The notes under the pieces: generated by a model | Told to the model about the DNA's origin: nothing | The model's database searches: none | What the model saw: the letters and a program-made list of their open reading frames with translations, nothing else | Translations under genes and position numbers: made by a program | Shown here: positions 973 through 9,013 of the stretch, piece by piece | Layout of the letters: each line of letters begins with the position of its first letter | How positions within the stretch are numbered: position 1 is the first letter of the stretch | DNA from: an uncultured Chthonomonadales bacterium | GTDB lineage: Bacteria > Armatimonadota > Chthonomonadetes > Chthonomonadales > CAJBBX01 | NCBI GenBank assembly: GCA_938005745.1 | Contig: CALLMM010000016.1 | Coordinates: forward strand, 35,223-99,222 | Direction of reading: 5' to 3' | Length of the DNA: 64,000 bases

Positions 973-1389
973 GTGACAAACGAAGAGATTGTGGAGATAC
1001 TCAACTATCATCTGGAGGAGGAGATTCGCGCCATTCTCCAGTACCTGCAGCATGCCTACATGGCGCGCGGCGTGGACCGCCTGCCGATCTATGAGTTCAT
1101 GGAGAAGGCGTCCATCGGCGAGATGAAGCATGTGGAGATCCTTGCCAAGAAGGTGGTGGCTTTCGGAGGAGTTCCTTCCATGCGCGCCAAGAACATAGAC
1201 AGTTCGCCGGACATCAAGGATATGCTGCGCGCCGATATCGCGCTGGAGGAGGAGGCGGTCCGGAAGTACTCGGAGGATGTCGCGAAGCTGGACGCGGCGG
1301 GACAGATTGCGCTGAAGGTGATCTTCGAGAACCTGGTCGAGGATGAGCAGGAGCATCTGGACGAGCTGCGGATTCTGCTCGGAGAGTAG
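973..1389 (+). CDS. Ferritin-like / bacterioferritin-type protein
   Basis: ORF; LNYHLEEEIRAILQYLQHAYMARG...EMKHVEILAKKV...EDEQEHLDEL ferritin-like E/H pattern; AAAGGAGAG RBS. Confidence 0.8.
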   Translation: MTNEEIVEILNYHLEEEIRAILQYLQHAYMARGVDRLPIYEFMEKASIGEMKHVEILAKKVVAFGGVPSMRAKNIDSSPDIKDMLRADIALEEEAVRKYSEDVAKLDAAGQIALKVIFENLVEDEQEHLDELRILLGE

Positions 1390-1412: not shown

Positions 1413-1446
1413 AGGCAGCCTGAGCGGTTTCAGGCTGCCTCTTTTG
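1413..1446 (+). terminator. Intrinsic terminator AGGCAGCCTGA-N-TCAGGCTGCCT-CTTTT
   Basis: 11-bp inverted repeat plus T-rich tail after the ferritin-like gene; overlaps the 3' end of the convergent Hpt gene. Confidence 0.75.
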
Positions 1447-1822
1447 CCAGATAGGCGGAGAGCTGCGGCTGAAGGCGATCCCACTCCTGCAGCGCATACC
1501 GCAACAGGGTGGGGGTCTCGGAGAGCGTCTCCTGTTTGCCCGCCATCTCCAGCTGCAGGCAGATCTGCGCCATCGCCTCCGCGCCGATGGTTCGGCTGGA
1601 ACCCTTCAGGGAGTGGGCGTTCAGCGTCAGATCGGGCGCGCTGCCCGACCCCACCGCCCCGCCAATCTTCGCCAGAAGGCTCGGTGCGGTCTCCAGGTAC
1701 TCGGCGATCACCTCCTGCGCGATCTCCAGATCGTAGCCGCACATCTCCTCCAGGCTGGCTGCGTTGAACGACTCGCCGTAATGGTCCGGAGCGTTGGAAG
1801 CCTGCGAGGACATCATCTGCAA
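1430..1822 (-). CDS. Hpt (histidine phosphotransfer) domain protein
   Basis: Motif LNAHSLKGSSRTIGA (AHxLKGSS) in a 130-aa protein. Confidence 0.8.
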   Translation of the reverse strand: MQMMSSQASNAPDHYGESFNAASLEEMCGYDLEIAQEVIAEYLETAPSLLAKIGGAVGSGSAPDLTLNAHSLKGSSRTIGAEAMAQICLQLEMAGKQETLSETPTLLRYALQEWDRLQPQLSAYLAKEAA

Positions 1823-1901
1823 TTATCTCCCGAATCAGGTAGTATCAATACTAATCATTGGCAGGAACGCGGGCATTCTTCAGGCAGAGAGGCGGGGGAG
1901 G

Positions 1902-2645
1902 ATGTGGAAGAGAGAGAGGCTCGTCTCCGATCTGCAGGCGATGCGCGTGCGGGAGGGGGACTCGCTGATCGTTCATGCGTCGCTGCGGGCGATCGGGCGG
2001 ATGGAGGAGGGAGCGGATACCTTTCTGGACGCGCTGCTGGAGGCGGTCGGCGCGCAGGGAACTGTGCTGATTCCGGCGTTTCGTCTGGAGCGGGATCGCG
2101 AGTCGGACTTTCCGGCGCCATGTCTGCTGCAGCGTGAGGGAGCCGTCTCCAGCCGCCATCCCCTGCTGCCCTTTGCCGCGCTCGGAGCCAACGCCGCCTT
2201 TCTGACCGCCGGCGCCCCCTTTCACTATCCGCTTGGAACCAACAGCCCGCTGGCGCGCCTGTACCAGTTGAACGGGGGCGCGCTGCTGATCGGCGTGGGA
2301 TATGCCGCGCACGCCGCGCTGCATCTGGCGGAGAACTGGGCGGACGCGCCCTATGCGCGGCGGAGACGTCTGGTGCGCGTGGAGGAGGATGCGTGGCAGG
2401 AGATGGAGGGCAGTCCGGAGTGCAGCGCGGGGTTTGGGAAGATCGAGCCGGTGCTGCGGCAGGCGCGTCTGCTGCGTGAAGGGTATGTCGGCAACGCCCC
2501 CGCGCAGTACATGCGCCTTCAGCAGGCGGTCAGCATGGCGCGGGAAATGCTGTGCGGCAACCCAGAGTCGCTTCTGTGCGACGCACCGGACTGCGAGCCG
2601 TGCACGCAGGCGCGCCGGTTCACGCGCCGCCAGGATGTGCGATAG
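1902..2645 (+). CDS. AAC(3)-family N-acetyltransferase
   Basis: GDSLIVHASLRAIGRMEEGADTFLDALLEAVGAQGTVLIPAF...HPLLPFAALG...PLGTNSPLARLYQLNGGALLIGVGY; GGGGGAGG RBS before ATG 1902. Confidence 0.8.
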   Translation: MWKRERLVSDLQAMRVREGDSLIVHASLRAIGRMEEGADTFLDALLEAVGAQGTVLIPAFRLERDRESDFPAPCLLQREGAVSSRHPLLPFAALGANAAFLTAGAPFHYPLGTNSPLARLYQLNGGALLIGVGYAAHAALHLAENWADAPYARRRRLVRVEEDAWQEMEGSPECSAGFGKIEPVLRQARLLREGYVGNAPAQYMRLQQAVSMAREMLCGNPESLLCDAPDCEPCTQARRFTRRQDVR

Positions 2646-2673: not shown

Positions 2674-2708
2674 GCGGCTCCTCCGCTACCATCAAGCGGA
2701 GGAGCCGC
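2674..2708. terminator. Bidirectional hairpin between convergent genes
   Basis: Perfect 14-bp inverted repeat GCGGCTCCTCCGCT...AGCGGAGGAGCCGC. Confidence 0.65.
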
Positions 2709-2745: not shown

Positions 2746-3216
2746 CTACCACGTAGGCGGGAAGATCGAGATACGTCCCTTGAGCAGAGGTTTCGGCTCA
2801 TCGGGAACCAGCGCATCGGAGCTCATTCGCACCACGCCGTTAACGGCGATTTTGAAGCTCAGGCAACTATTCAGGCCGTCCGAGTTCATGTACATGGTGA
2901 GGGTAGCGCGGGACTTGCCGTAAAAGCCATTCGCCTCTACCATAACTTCATGGTTGGAGCTGAAGTTGACCTTGCTGACCCAGCCGTAGAAACCGATCGT
3001 TCCGCCAAGCTGGCCAACATTCAACCGGTAGGTATTGATTCTTCCGTCAGGATAGACATAGACAGAAGAGACAACGCGGTAAGTTTTGCCGGCATTGGCA
3101 ATATAAGCGTCGCTGCTGAAACCCGCCTTGCCCTGCGCGCTTGCGGGGGTTGCATTCGCCATCGCTATCGCCATCGCGCCAGCCGCAACCAGAAACATAA
3201 AGCTCTTGCGAAGCAT
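2746..3216 (-). CDS. Small secreted protein, unknown function (family 'A', copy 1)
   Basis: Signal peptide MLRKSFMFLVAAGAMAIAMANATPASA; paralogue of 4461-4925. Confidence 0.75.
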   Translation of the reverse strand: MLRKSFMFLVAAGAMAIAMANATPASAQGKAGFSSDAYIANAGKTYRVVSSVYVYPDGRINTYRLNVGQLGGTIGFYGWVSKVNFSSNHEVMVEANGFYGKSRATLTMYMNSDGLNSCLSFKIAVNGVVRMSSDALVPDEPKPLLKGRISIFPPTW

Positions 3217-3364
3217 GGTATTACTCCTTTAACCGTAACTAGTTCACGCTGCGACGTTGAACTATCAGAGTTTTCCATTCTGTTCTGGAGGGCGAGCCTA
3301 CGGGAGATACCGGGTTTTCAGGTGCTGCGCGGTGCCGGTGCGCAATTGTGGCTGCGATAAAAAA

Positions 3365-3390
3365 GATCCCCGGTGAGGTCACCGGGGATC
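3365..3390 (-). terminator. Intrinsic terminator downstream of PEP-CTERM gene copy 1
   Basis: GATCCCCGGTGA-GG-TCACCGGGGATC perfect stem followed by T-run on minus strand. Confidence 0.85.
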
Positions 3391-3416
3391 CTGAATGCTT
3401 TGGACGAGGAAGCGAT

Positions 3417-4115
3417 CTAGCGCTTGCGTCGGCGGAAGAGGAGGGCGGAGCCTGCGACGCCCATGCCGACCAGCATCGCCAGCGTGCCCGGCTCAGGAAC
3501 GAGCGTGCCGCTGATGTTGCCGCTGATCTGCGTGAACAGCTTGGTCTTCATGAAGCCATTGCCGCCAATCACCACGCCGGTGTTGGCCGGGCTGTAGCCG
3601 TTGGCGTTGGAGGTGAACGAAGCCGCCTCGTTGGTGTAGGGACCGAGCGCGTAGTCCGAAGTCAGCGTCAGGTTCACGCCGAAGAACGGATCATCTCCCG
3701 TGGAGAGATCAATGTTATTGACAAAGCCCTGCGTATATGCCGCGATATCACCGCCCGGTACATTCGGGAAGACGGGGGTCGCCACGCCCTTGATGTAGGT
3801 CACCGTTCCGGCAGCATTGGTGATCTTAAAGGTGAAGCTGGAAAGACCTTGGAACCCGAAAAAGCCCGGATTGGTGGCGGCGCCGCTGAAGGTCAGTTTC
3901 GCGGTAGCGTCTAGAAAGCCGGGTACCAGCGAGAGACCGGAGGTGTGAGTGAATTTGCCGGTCTGGGAGCCGGAGAGAACCTGCGTGGCGTTGTTGAAGG
4001 TGACGGTTCCCCCGTTGCCATCCCATCCCAGCTGCAACAGTGTGACAGCCTGACTGGTAACAGACGCTGTGAAGAGCGCCGTCCCAGCCATCAATATTAC
4101 CAGTAACTTCCTCAT
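3417..4115 (-). CDS. PEP-CTERM sorting domain protein (family 'B', copy 1)
   Basis: Signal peptide MRKLLVILMAGTALFTASVTSQA; C-terminus VPEPGTLAMLVGMGVAGSALLFRRRKR. Confidence 0.9.
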   Translation of the reverse strand: MRKLLVILMAGTALFTASVTSQAVTLLQLGWDGNGGTVTFNNATQVLSGSQTGKFTHTSGLSLVPGFLDATAKLTFSGAATNPGFFGFQGLSSFTFKITNAAGTVTYIKGVATPVFPNVPGGDIAAYTQGFVNNIDLSTGDDPFFGVNLTLTSDYALGPYTNEAASFTSNANGYSPANTGVVIGGNGFMKTKLFTQISGNISGTLVPEPGTLAMLVGMGVAGSALLFRRRKR

Positions 4116-4266
4116 GTGCTTCCAACTCCTTGTTCTGTCATCAGTAAATCTATGATTGCGCCGTGTGAACGGATAGTCTGCCGAAATCTGGCAGCGCCAC
4201 TCACTACTTCTGCGCAGGCGCGGAGATCTCCTCTTTGAAATCTTCACGGTGTTCAATGGAAGTAGA

Positions 4267-4284
4267 ATGCAAGTTCTATGCCAA
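4267..4284 (-). promoter_or_regulatory. Sigma-54 (-24/-12) promoter candidate
   Basis: Minus strand TTGGCATAGAACTTGCAT; GG and GC 12 nt apart (consensus TGGCAC-N5-TTGCW). Confidence 0.75.
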
Positions 4285-4392
4285 AGGGAGCAGTGATGGT
4301 CATGAACAGGAGGAAAATTTCTGACTTTTTTACCGCCTGACGACTCCCTGTGCGTGAGGCTATTTGTTATAGTGTACGAATAACCAGACGAC

Positions 4393-4430
4393 AAAAATCC
4401 GTATTACCGCGTCCCAGCGGCAATACGGAT
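4393..4430 (-). terminator. Intrinsic terminator downstream of family 'A' copy 2
   Basis: ATCCGTATTGCCGC...GCGGTAATACGGAT followed by TTTTT on minus strand. Confidence 0.8.
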
Positions 4431-4460
4431 GAGCATCGGCGGTTTTCAGGATAGGAGAGG

Positions 4461-4925
4461 TCAGGGCGCGACGACCGTCACCCTGCCGGAGAGGATCGTT
4501 ACCGGGTCGCCGGCAACCTGATCCAGGGTGTTCAGAACATTCACACCATTGACCACAATACGGAAGCCGATCGCGCTGTTGGCGCCGTCCGACCGCAGAT
4601 ACATGTACAGCACTGCGCGGGAGCGACCCCAGAAGCCGTTCGCGGTTGCCTGCACCTCGTTCTCCGACAGAAAGTTGAGGCCGGAGACCCAGCCGTAAAA
4701 TCCGATAGTGCCGCCCAGCACGCCGATATTCAGCCGGTAGGTGGAGATGCTGCCGTTAGGATTGACATAGACGGAAGAGACCACGCGGGCAGTGCCGGAG
4801 GGGGTGGGGACCTGTGCGTCGGTTGCGAATCCGGTATACTGCGCCCGGGCGGGAGAACTGAAAGAGAGTGCGACCAGCAGCGCCGCCAGTAAAGCGCTGC
4901 GAGAGATCAACGAAGACCAGTGCAT
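4461..4925 (-). CDS. Small secreted protein, unknown function (family 'A', copy 2)
   Basis: Signal peptide; shares RVVSSVYVxPxGxIxTYRLNxGxLGGTIGFYGWVS and ANGFxGxSRAxLxMYxxSDGxNS with 2746-3216. Confidence 0.75.
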   Translation of the reverse strand: MHWSSLISRSALLAALLVALSFSSPARAQYTGFATDAQVPTPSGTARVVSSVYVNPNGSISTYRLNIGVLGGTIGFYGWVSGLNFLSENEVQATANGFWGRSRAVLYMYLRSDGANSAIGFRIVVNGVNVLNTLDQVAGDPVTILSGRVTVVAP

Positions 4926-5235
4926 GATTTCCTCCAGTTGGTGGCTAAATAGATTGGCTGCTGAAAGGCATATCGGATAAGCCCAAAAGGTTTTGACTCT
5001 CGCCGTTCGAGCATCTGTGAGATGGATGGTAGGCGGTTACTATTTATAACCATTAACTTCAACAGGGAGCCTGCTCGGTGGATTTCAGACACAACAGACA
5101 TGTGGCAAGAGGCGGGGGCGCGCATAGCCTTAATATTTTGTAATATGGCAAGAGAGAGACAAAAATAGTGTGTGTGAATGATATTCAGAAATCCGTTTGT
5201 CTGACGACCGTATCCCGAGAGAGGTTCCCTAATTG

Positions 5236-5270
5236 CGAAAAAATCCCGGAGGAACTCCGGGATTTTTTCG
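5236..5270. terminator. Bidirectional intrinsic terminator
   Basis: Perfect palindrome CGAAAAAATCCCGGAG-GAA-CTCCGGGATTTTTTCG. Confidence 0.9.
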
Positions 5271-5286
5271 ATGGTCATGTAGGGCG

Positions 5287-5976
5287 TTAGCGCTTGCGTC
5301 GGCGGAAGAGGAGGGCGGAGCCTGCCACGCCCATGCCGACCAGCATCGCCAGCGTGCCCGGCTCGGGAACGACCGTCTCGCCGCTGATATTGCCGCTGAT
5401 CTGCGAGAACGTCTTGGTCTCCATGAAGCCGTTGGCATCAATCACCACGCCGCCGCCCGGGCTGTAGCCGTTGGCGTTGGAGGTGAAGGAGGCGGCGTTG
5501 GAGGTGTACGGACCGATCGCGTAGTCCGAGGTCAGCGTCAGCATAATCCCGCCGATCGGATCGTCACCGGTGGAAAGACCGATGCTGTTGGCAAAGCCGG
5601 TGGTATATGCTGCGACATCATCGCCCGGGATGGCGGCGGTCGCCACGCCCTTGATGTAGGTCACCGTTCCGGCGGCGTTCGTGATTTCGAACGTGTAGCT
5701 GCTCAGACCCTGAAAGCCCGGAAAGCCGGGGTTGGTCGCGGCGCCGGTGAAGATCAGCTTCGCAGTCAGATCCGTGAAGCCCGGCGCCAGGGAGAGGCCG
5801 GAGGTGTGGGTGAACTTACCAGTCTGGGTTCCGGACAGAACCTGGGTGGCGTTGTCGAACTTGATGGTGCCGCCCGTGCCGTCCCAGCCGAGCTGCAGCA
5901 GGGTAACGGCCTGGCTAGTGACCGCAAGGGTCGCCAGAGCGGCGCCCGCCAGCAGAGTGCTCAGGAACTTCTTCAT
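5287..5976 (-). CDS. PEP-CTERM sorting domain protein (family 'B', copy 2)
   Basis: Signal peptide; ...VVPEPGTLAMLVGMGVAGSALLFRRRKR; very similar along its length to 3417-4115. Confidence 0.9.
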   Translation of the reverse strand: MKKFLSTLLAGAALATLAVTSQAVTLLQLGWDGTGGTIKFDNATQVLSGTQTGKFTHTSGLSLAPGFTDLTAKLIFTGAATNPGFPGFQGLSSYTFEITNAAGTVTYIKGVATAAIPGDDVAAYTTGFANSIGLSTGDDPIGGIMLTLTSDYAIGPYTSNAASFTSNANGYSPGGGVVIDANGFMETKTFSQISGNISGETVVPEPGTLAMLVGMGVAGSALLFRRRKR

Positions 5977-6102
5977 CTACAGGTGGTCTCCTTTCTCGAG
6001 AAGAGAAGATAAAGGAGCGCTCGGTGATGGTCTCCTCCAGTACGTAGGAGGCTACTTCTCATCAACTACAGCGCATGGGTCGAGATCTCCATTGACTTCT
6101 GA

Positions 6103-6120
6103 ATGCAAGTTCTGTGCCAA
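6103..6120 (-). promoter_or_regulatory. Sigma-54 (-24/-12) promoter candidate
   Basis: Minus strand TTGGCACAGAACTTGCAT, near-perfect match to TGGCAC-N5-TTGCW. Confidence 0.8.
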
Positions 6121-6243
6121 AAGGAGTATGCGGGTCAACTTTTTTTTCCTGCTTTTTTCGCCGCAGTTCCTTTCGGCTTTGAACTGAGCCTTCTCATGCG
6201 TTTTTCAACATGCTACAGTATGATGCGCTCGCGTCTACCATAG

Positions 6244-6260
6244 ATGCAATTTGCGTGCCA
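6244..6260 (-). promoter_or_regulatory. Second upstream sigma-54 promoter candidate
   Basis: Minus strand TGGCACGCAAATTGCAT (TGGCACG-N4-TTGCA). Confidence 0.7.
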
Positions 6261-6313
6261 TATTCCGCATGACCGTCTCGGATCGGGGAGTTTTCAGTAT
6301 TTTTTTGCAGGAT

Positions 6314-7054
6314 TCATTCCCTCTGTTCTCCGCGTCCCGCAAAAATCGCGCGCACGCCCGCCAGATCCTCGGGCGTATCCACCGACAGAGGCGCCTTCTC
6401 GATGCGCACCATGCGGATCGTGTATCCGTGCTCCAGAGCGCGAAGCTGCTCCAGCGACTCGGTCTGCTCGAGAGGCGTCGGGGGCAGCGCGGCGAAGGCG
6501 AGCAGAAACTCCCGGCGGTAGGCGTACAGCCCTACATGCTGCATGACCGGGATCGCCGCCGTCTCGCCCCGCTGAAAGGGGATGCGCGCGCGAGAGAAGT
6601 AGAGCGCGTTGTTCTGCCGGTCGTGCACCACCTTGACGGTTGAAGGGGCGTCCAGTTCCGACTCCGGGCAGATGCACATCAGCGAACTCATCGGCAGGGC
6701 GGGGTCCGCCAGCAGCGGCGCGACCGCCTGCTCGATCACCTGCGGCTCGATCAGCGGCTCGTCGCCCTGAATGTTGACGATGATCTCAGCATCCAGGCTC
6801 GCGGCGGCTTCCGCCAGCCGGTCGGTGCCGGAGCGGTGCCGGGGCGAGGTCATCACGGCTCTCCCCCCGAACCCTTCGACGGCTTTGCGGATCGCTTCGT
6901 CCGGCGTGGCGACGAGCAGATCGTCCAGGCAGGCTGCCTGCCGAGCGCGCTCCCAGACCCACTGAATCATCGGCTTGCCCGCGATGTCGAGCAACGGCTT
7001 ATCCGGCAGGCGCACGGCGGCAAGGCGCGCCGGAATGATCCCGGTAACTTTCAT
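6314..7054 (-). CDS. kdsB: 3-deoxy-manno-octulosonate cytidylyltransferase
   Basis: MKVTGIIPARLAAVRLPDKPLLDIAGKPMIQWVWERA...NIQGDEPLIEP...SRARIPF...HVGLYAYRR. Confidence 0.95.
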   Translation of the reverse strand: MKVTGIIPARLAAVRLPDKPLLDIAGKPMIQWVWERARQAACLDDLLVATPDEAIRKAVEGFGGRAVMTSPRHRSGTDRLAEAAASLDAEIIVNIQGDEPLIEPQVIEQAVAPLLADPALPMSSLMCICPESELDAPSTVKVVHDRQNNALYFSRARIPFQRGETAAIPVMQHVGLYAYRREFLLAFAALPPTPLEQTESLEQLRALEHGYTIRMVRIEKAPLSVDTPEDLAGVRAIFAGRGEQRE

Positions 7055-7090: not shown

Positions 7091-8170
7091 CTACGCCCCG
7101 ATCTCTCTCAGAACAGCCAGCGCCGCCTCCCGCACCGGCTCCGGAGGCAGCGCGTCGAGGGCACGCCGGTTGGCGTGGCGGTCGGCGCGTCCGGGTGAGA
7201 AGGGAGCCGTTACGACCCGATGCGGGGCGCCGTAGCCCCATCGGGCGGCGGTCTGCGGTCCCTGCACCGAGACGGTGGGAGTGTTCAGCGCGGCGGCGGC
7301 GTGCACCAGCGCGGTATCGTTGGCGATCAGCAGGTCGGCTTCGGCAAGCAGCGCCAGCGCCTCGCGCAGGTTCGTGCGTCCCGCCAGGTTTACGAAGGGG
7401 GTTCGGCTGAGCGCGGCGACCTGCGCGCAGTCGCCCTCCTCCTCCTTCGCCCCGATCAGCGCGAAGCAGGCGCGAAGACCGGCGGAGCCGTTCCCTGAAA
7501 GATGCTGCGCCAGCCCGTCGGCGACGGCGGCGAACCGCGCCCCCTCCCATCGCTTCTTGTAGGGGTCTTTTGCGCCCGGTTGAAACAGAATCAGCGGACG
7601 GGGCAGAGGCGGCGGCGCGCCCGCCCCGGCGAGCATCTCCCGCGCGCGCCGCCGCTCCTCCTCCGTCACCCACAGCTCCGGCAGACGGTATGCCGCCTCC
7701 ACGCCGACGGCGCGCAGAAGGTCGAGATAGCAGTCAATCTCGCGGGCGTCCCGGCGATAGGGAACGCGGGTCGTCAGCAGCGGTCCCCGGCACTCCGTGT
7801 CGAACCCGATCCGTCGGGGGATGCGGGCGAGGGCGGCGATCCAGGCGGAGTGGAGGGAGCGGTTGAGCAGAAAGGCGGCGTCGAACCGCGCCGCGCGAAT
7901 CTGGGAGATCAACTGCCGGTTGGCGCGCCATCCACCAGGATTCTGCGGGTCGAATGTCCAGATTTCGCTCAGATAGGGGCAGCCCTGCAGCAGGATCGGG
8001 AGCGCAGGACCGGTCAGCAGAATGACCGCCGCCTCCGGAGCGACCTCGCGCAGCCGCCGCAGGAACGGGGTGGCGACGATGGTGTCGCCCAGATAGCGAA
8101 ACTTGGTGACGACCAGAATGCGCTGTGCCTCCGCAAGCGTGCGCTGCGCATCTTCAGGCAGGGAGGGCAT
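7091..8170 (-). CDS. Glycosyltransferase family 9 (LPS heptosyltransferase-like)
   Basis: ILVVTKFRYLGDTIVATPFLRRLRE...PLILFQPGAKDPYKKRW...LLIANDTALVHAAAALNTPTVSVQG. Confidence 0.88.
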   Translation of the reverse strand: MPSLPEDAQRTLAEAQRILVVTKFRYLGDTIVATPFLRRLREVAPEAAVILLTGPALPILLQGCPYLSEIWTFDPQNPGGWRANRQLISQIRAARFDAAFLLNRSLHSAWIAALARIPRRIGFDTECRGPLLTTRVPYRRDAREIDCYLDLLRAVGVEAAYRLPELWVTEEERRRAREMLAGAGAPPPLPRPLILFQPGAKDPYKKRWEGARFAAVADGLAQHLSGNGSAGLRACFALIGAKEEEGDCAQVAALSRTPFVNLAGRTNLREALALLAEADLLIANDTALVHAAAALNTPTVSVQGPQTAARWGYGAPHRVVTAPFSPGRADRHANRRALDALPPEPVREAALAVLREIGA

Positions 8171-8179
8171 GGGATCTCC

Positions 8180-9013
8180 TCAGAGCGACGGGGCGCGCCG
8201 GGCGATCCGGTGGATCTCGACGACGGTCGTCAGCAGCGCGGGAAGCTGCGCCAGCGGGTACATGGTCGCCGGGTCGGAAAGCCCCTTCTCCGGCTCCGGA
8301 TGAACCTCCATGAAGAGGGCGTCTATCCCGGCGGCGGCGGCGGCGCGCGCCAGATGCGGGATGAATTCGCGCCTGCCCCCCGACTGCCTCCCCGCCGCGC
8401 CCGGAAGCTGAACGCTGTGCGTGGCGTCAAAACAGACCGGATAGCCCAGCGCGCGCATCTGCGGCAGGGCGGTCATGTCCACGATGAGCGTGTGGTAGCC
8501 GAAAGAGACGCCCCGCTCGGTCAGGATCAGGTTGCGGTTGCCGGTCTGCACGATCTTCTGCGCGACGTTCGCCATGTCTGCGGGCGCGAGAAACTGTCCC
8601 TTCTTGACGTTGACACAGCGTCCGGTCTGCGCGGCGGCGATCAGCAGATCGGTCTGCCGGCACAGAAAGGCGGGTATCTGCAGCACATCGGCGACCTGCG
8701 CGACCGGCTGCGCCTGCCAGGATTCGTGGATGTCGGTCAGAACCGGGACGTCGAACTCACGGCGGATGTCCGCCAGAACCTGCAGCCCCCTCTCCATCCC
8801 CTGACCGCGATAGGCGTCGGCGGCGGTGCGGTTGGCTTTATCGAAGGAGGCTTTGAAGATGTAGTGTATCCCGATCTCCGCGCAGATCGTCTTCACGGCG
8901 GCGGCGACTTCGCGGCACAGGTCGAGGCTCTCAATCACGCACGGTCCGGCGATGAGCGTCAGGGGATCCGACTCTCCGCCGATGGTGAAGCCTCCGACAG
9001 CAGCAGGGGACAT
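8180..9013 (-). CDS. kdsA: 3-deoxy-8-phosphooctulonate synthase
   Basis: [12 protein letters not shown]...[13 protein letters not shown]...[35 protein letters not shown]...[14 protein letters not shown]. Confidence 0.95.

Follow-up and report, generated by a model that had tools for sequence, protein, structure and literature searches.

Two genes, one for a PEP-CTERM protein (B) and one for a small exported protein (A), occur as a B-A unit, twice in tandem, in a 64-kb stretch of DNA (the window) from a member of the Armatimonadota. To our knowledge, PEP-CTERM/exosortase systems are widespread, and the role and partners of most of the proteins that they sort are not established. The locus raises the question of whether A is a partner of B, or a gene that lies beside it for other reasons.

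A duplicated two-gene unit beside kdsB

The window belongs to contig C16 of its own assembly (genome G000; 4.26 Mb, 94% complete). The four minus-strand reading frames A1, B1, A2 and B2, first proposed in a sequence-only reading, were all confirmed (Table 1); for B1, the ATG at 4115 was preferred to a longer frame starting with TTG. A purine-rich stretch resembling a ribosome-binding site lies 5' of each gene, and the claim that each gene is followed by its own hairpin held for all four. The cluster is situated directly downstream of kdsB, next to which lie a GT9 heptosyltransferase-like gene and kdsA; its surroundings are a KDO/LPS-core locus. The records to which this kdsB is closest are Armatimonadota ones named as Chthonomonadales or Chthonomonadia, in agreement with the phylum given in the sequence-only reading. 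On the other side, an aminoglycoside 3-N-acetyltransferase family gene (1794-2645, plus strand; PF02522, E 1e-45) is convergent with A1. A gene for a ferritin-like protein (973-1389, plus strand; PF00210) adjoins one for a stand-alone Hpt-domain protein (1430-1822, minus strand; PF01627).

Table 1. Features of the B-A cluster, its flanks and the sigma-54 activator gene (window positions unless a contig is named)
Feature	Position	Strand	Description
A1	2746..3216	-	156 aa; small exported protein, N-terminal signal peptide (MLRK...ASAQ), predicted all-beta
B1	3417..4115	-	232 aa; PEP-CTERM (predicted exosortase-sorted) protein
A2	4461..4925	-	154 aa; A1 paralogue
B2	5287..5976	-	229 aa; B1 paralogue, PEP-CTERM
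Hairpin	2674..2708	-	3' of A1
Hairpin and T-run	3363..3392	-	3' of B1; terminator-like
Hairpin and T-run	4397..4430	-	3' of A2; terminator-like
Perfect 16-bp inverted repeat	5236..5270	-	3' of B2; terminator-like
Sigma-54-type -24/-12 site TGGCATAGAACTTGCA	4268..4283	-	168 nt 5' of B1 start
Sigma-54-type site TGGCACAGAACTTGCA	6104..6119	-	143 nt 5' of B2 start
Second B2 sigma-54-type site TGGCACGCAAATTGCA	6245..6260	-	284 nt 5' of B2 start, just after kdsB
kdsB	6314..7054	-	CMP-KDO synthetase; TIGR00466 over cut-off; conserved neighbour of the B/A cluster (synteny in G002, G004, G012)
GT9 heptosyltransferase-like protein	7091..8170	-	PF01075; flanking
kdsA	8180..9013	-	KDO-8-phosphate synthase; TIGR01362 over cut-off; flanking; also adjoins the B array in G002 C154
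Sigma-54 activator	G000 C5:32647-33855 (L238:5647-6855)		402 aa; receiver, AAA+ and lid domains

Gene order and paralogy agree with the proposal of a tandemly duplicated two-gene unit. A1 and A2 are 53% identical over 133 aa (E 1e-48), and B1 and B2 are 78% identical over their full length. By the NG86 method, the A pair had a dN of 0.49, a dS of 1.03 and a dN/dS of 0.47, while the B pair had a dN of 0.14, a dS of 0.62 and a dN/dS of 0.22. Since dN/dS is below 1 in both pairs, A and B look like real, constrained genes, and both pairs look to be under purifying selection. Divergence at four-fold sites was similar in the two pairs (20/46 for A, 44/118 for B; p = 0.48). These values are compatible with, and not proof of, a single duplication of the B-A unit after which A diverged faster. 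The 5' flanks of B1 and B2 show homology to each other (z = 8.6), and outside the genes it is only in these flanks that homology is still recognisable; none could be recognised between the two copies in the B-A spacers or in the stretches downstream of A.

The B and A proteins

The PEP-CTERM assignment of B is firm. B1 and B2 scored 24.5 and 25.5 bits against PF07589 (cut-off 20.7), and the B proteins scored 23.2 bits against TIGR02595 (cut-off 16); with the identity given above, they are full-length PEP-CTERM paralogues, as had been claimed. The genome carries two exosortase genes (PF09721; E 6e-57 and 4e-51), and B1 and B2 are predicted to be cleaved and sorted by exosortase. The C-terminal part of B2 matched the THxN family of PEP-CTERM proteins (NF038125, E 3e-5). 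This likeness is essentially that of the sorting tail, and B does not belong to the family, as its scores of 18.3 and 23.6 bits stand against a cut-off of 85. A search of PDB sequences with B gave chance-level matches only, and its predicted structure (pLDDT 33) was too poor for use.

For A, no family match was obtained for either copy in Pfam, NCBIfam or PDB sequences, the last of which gave chance-level matches only. The AlphaFold model of A1 is beta-rich and weakly predicted (pLDDT 58), and fold searches of A gave no significant match, whether to avidin-like or YceI-like beta-barrels or to other folds (none with E <= 0.001 in Foldseek). Avidin-type barrels recur among its fold matches, at E values of 0.1-1, a TM of about 0.16 and the same model pLDDT of 58; A may also resemble 'post-COAP-1'-like beta domains. 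The view that A is in no known family was thus borne out by profile, PDB sequence and fold searches. Searches for A in collections of genome contigs, viral contigs, plasmids and phages found nothing, and with 200 relatives searched by sequence, A was found only in the window genome. Two candidates, in G033 and G080, were weak matches lying antisense in gltX with stops, and were rejected.

Sigma-54-type sites and their candidate regulators

Upstream of B1 and B2, TGGCAYAGAACTTGCA sequences match the sigma-54 -24/-12 consensus. The window holds only three strong sites of this type, all upstream of B1/B2. Genome-wide, 13 exact sites were found, as compared with 2 for a reversed control pattern; they are spread over contigs C1, C7, C10, C11, C16 and C17 of G000, and several of those elsewhere stand ahead of other PEP-CTERM genes, of a gene for an EPS sugar transferase and of one for a UDP-sugar dehydrogenase. 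Sites also lie 5' of a flagellar-rod-like gene and of a ParA/MinD-like gene near rpoN. Among the relatives, a strong site was present within 400 nt of 15 of the 30 PEP-CTERM genes, where about 0.02 per 400 nt would be expected by chance; in G017, the full-length B homologues have sites at -284 and -280. When the A-linked loci of the window and the relatives were taken together, 9 of 10 B genes had a sigma-54 site, and none of the 10 A-type genes had one. By these predicted sites, A and B are without promoter-level co-regulation: B has sigma-54-type sites and A has none.

One RpoN is encoded in the window genome, together with a single bona fide, full-strength sigma-54 activator. A GAF/PAS histidine kinase gene sits just before the activator gene. 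The activator scored 390 for PrsR, short of the curated cut-off of 502.6, and is closer to AtoC/NtrC; PrsK was likewise not found at its curated cut-off in the genome (best 107.6 of 300 bits). Pfam detected no HTH in the activator. In this it resembles activators that are thought to act without an enhancer site. When the sequences 5' of the sigma-54 sites were compared by 7-mers, no obvious common enhancer motif emerged.

Two known systems are close to this arrangement. A PEP-CTERM-associated sigma-54 motif was described only in Proteobacteria, where it is tied to PrsK/PrsR/PrsT (Haft 2006, PMC1569441). Like the proteobacterial EpsH system of that study, the present genome has single-gene PEP-CTERM units preceded by long non-coding stretches that carry -24/-12 sites, as well as exosortase and EPS genes; unlike it, the genome belongs to the Armatimonadota, its PrsK and PrsR models stay below cut-offs, its sole activator has no detected HTH, no enhancer motif common to the sites was apparent, and there is a companion gene for a small secreted protein. 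In Aquincola tertiaricarbonis, pepA is an RpoN-dependent PEP-CTERM gene with a mapped TGGCAC/-12 promoter and its own terminator, and PepA keeps EPS on the cells (PMC9850573). In both cases, a sigma-54-type promoter sequence lies 5' of a PEP-CTERM gene that is followed by a separate terminator; however, Aquincola is a proteobacterium, and its pepA is followed downstream by prsT rather than by a gene encoding a small, beta-rich secreted protein (PMC9850573).

With sites above chance and with RpoN and an activator encoded, the genome would qualify as having a sigma-54-controlled PEP-CTERM regulon, and would not qualify as having the proteobacterial Prs type, for which PrsK and PrsR are expected at cut-off. 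What appears to be new is the specificity of strong sigma-54-type sites for B1/B2 within the window, and the occurrence of such an arrangement outside the Proteobacteria. The sites may mark a compact surface regulon in Armatimonadota. The locus also places the link between sigma-54 and PEP-CTERM proteins in this phylum, in which a compact surface/EPS regulon may be under the control of a single RpoN and a single apparent activator.

Recurrence of the B-A neighbourhood and the proposed partnership

If A and B act together, then A-like genes are expected beside B-like genes in other genomes. Outside the window, A-type genes were defined by position, size and signal peptide, using a uniformly applied filter (signal peptide, 110-175 aa, no PEP-CTERM tail). 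The signal-peptide filter was our own heuristic, drafted after the first examples were known; at high-GC loci it recovered real genes that had been masked by spurious antisense ORFs. A-like genes adjoin B-like PEP-CTERM genes in four further genomes from this order: G002, G004, G012 and G017. The search for further B-A pairs among relatives, suggested in the sequence-only reading, was thus successful, and neither of the outcomes that it had named beforehand as speaking against it, a known domain in A or homologues of A and B that are never neighbours, occurred.

Three of these genomes, G002, G004 and G012, have A-like genes next to PEP-CTERM genes at a kds locus, either that of kdsB or that of kdsA. 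In G002, which shares its family with the window genome, kdsA adjoins a tandem array of three PEP-CTERM genes together with the gene for an exported protein of 142 aa. A paralogue of this protein (62% identity) is encoded next to kdsB on a second contig; the kdsB-linked and PEP-CTERM-linked A copies of G002 are hence on different contigs. The order is kdsB-A-B-A in G004 and kdsB-A-B-B in G012, with A inverted. A small secreted gene was present at the kdsB loci of 4/4 genomes with a kds-linked PEP-CTERM cluster and of 0/15 others (19 loci), giving a Fisher p of 2.6e-4, or 1.2e-3 when G002, which has contig breaks at this place, is set aside; these values serve as guides, since the filter was post hoc, the loci are phylogenetically related and the test was picked after G004 and G012 had stood out. 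In named Armatimonadota records, kdsB neighbourhoods contained no PEP-CTERM pair.

Such a distribution could arise without any partnership, if genes that encode surface or secreted proteins gather and duplicate in the kdsB/kdsA region, and A and B lie together only as envelope genes. In favour of a hotspot, the pair is kds-linked in 3/4 of the other genomes, its arrangement there differs in gene order, strand and copy number (A-B-A, A-B-B, and B-B-B with A), and the promoter types of A and B differ. Against it stands G017, which belongs to a different family within the order and whose full-length B relatives lie on two contigs, away from kdsB and among unrelated genes, each followed by a 160-aa exported protein on the same strand. 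The pairing thus follows B rather than kdsB. Moreover, the other PEP-CTERM genes of the window genome have no such neighbour: under the same filter, none of its nine other PEP-CTERM loci had a small secreted gene beside it, and those of the other relatives gave a single one, 1.1 kb distant. We consider the hotspot explanation doubtful, if well worth keeping in mind.

A second alternative is that A is not a structural partner of B but regulates or processes it, for instance as a chaperone, as an inhibitor or as an accessory protein of the exosortase. Small exported proteins can serve as regulators or processing factors; A adjoins B, and in having no sigma-54 site it is predicted to be expressed independently of the sigma-54 switch. 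But A is confined to B-type loci and absent from the other PEP-CTERM loci of the genome, and its sequence is far more variable than would be expected of a general accessory factor. A role of this kind seems to us very unlikely.

The variability of A also limits what can be said about its ancestry. By pairwise shuffling, significant similarity was found between A2 and G004 (z 5.2), G002 and G005 (6.9), and G002 and G017 (5.4), and the A-like pair within G004 was also favoured; many other pairs were at chance level. The score of A1/A2 against the small proteins of G017 was reached by 57/200 column shuffles and is not significant alone, while the profiles of A with G004, and of G002 with G005 and G008, exceeded all 150 column shuffles against the G017 set. 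The A-like sequences are highly divergent; therefore, their common ancestry across genomes is only partly supported, and, the family link being incomplete, the 'A-type' is set by position, size and signal peptide.

The association of A with B is not obligate. A-type genes without a PEP-CTERM neighbour stand in G017 (contig C117, L086:9317-9772), G005 (L099, about 6161-6598) and G008 (L100, about 6083-6520); the solitary G017 copy and the two B-linked ones are 39-59% identical to one another. A might then be a secreted or periplasmic protein that acts on its own, such as a small binding or matrix protein, and its gene would have been copied along with B in the duplication. Its own promoter and terminator, its B-less occurrences and the similar four-fold divergence of the A and B pairs, as from one joint duplication, would all fit. 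This explanation leaves unaccounted for the A-like genes beside B-type genes in other genera and families, and we regard it as unlikely.

Hence, the claim that A and B act together stands in part: the neighbourhood recurs in four genomes, whereas A elsewhere is known mainly by position, size and signal peptide, the promoters differ and the link is not obligate. There is now real, if partial, support for a functional link of a surface-anchored protein with a secreted partner, and it comes mainly from the recurring neighbourhood. With moderate confidence, we favour a tandem surface-protein pair at the KDO locus, composed of an exosortase-sorted, sigma-54-controlled matrix protein B and a separately expressed, hypervariable secreted companion A. 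Taking the tails, the paralogy, the promoter-type sites, the encoded RpoN, activator and exosortases and the recurrence together, we infer the following course for the processing and location of B, its contact with A and their function. B would be transcribed from its sigma-54 promoter by the single RpoN, probably with the single NtrC-like activator, and exported through Sec. Its PEP-CTERM tail would then be recognised by one of the two exosortases, and B would either be set free into the exopolysaccharide layer or become fixed there. The small, beta-rich exported protein A would be expressed from a separate promoter that is not of the sigma-54 type, and thus be available independently of B's switch; in the envelope or matrix it may be B's companion, binding, for example, B or B's glycan. 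Given the asymmetry of sigma-54 sites, A and B would meet only with the sigma-54 switch on. The fast sequence change of A may reflect an exposed interaction surface.

This pair nominates a companion for one PEP-CTERM subgroup, a small secreted gene that lies beside B-type genes across genera and families. A bolder form of the proposal, which we think quite unlikely, is a two-part surface display in which a sigma-54-switched, exosortase-sorted anchor B and a separately made, hypervariable secreted ligand A co-diversify. If true, every lineage would have a matched pair specific to it, as expected of a system for self-recognition or matrix specificity.

In G012 (L132), a sigma-54 site at about position 2111, counted in the orientation of kdsB, lies ~1 kb before the first PEP-CTERM gene and is identical to the site before the second. 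The inverted A-type gene (L132:8289-8738, plus strand) lies between that site and the first PEP-CTERM gene, as if it had been inserted between a putative promoter and its B.
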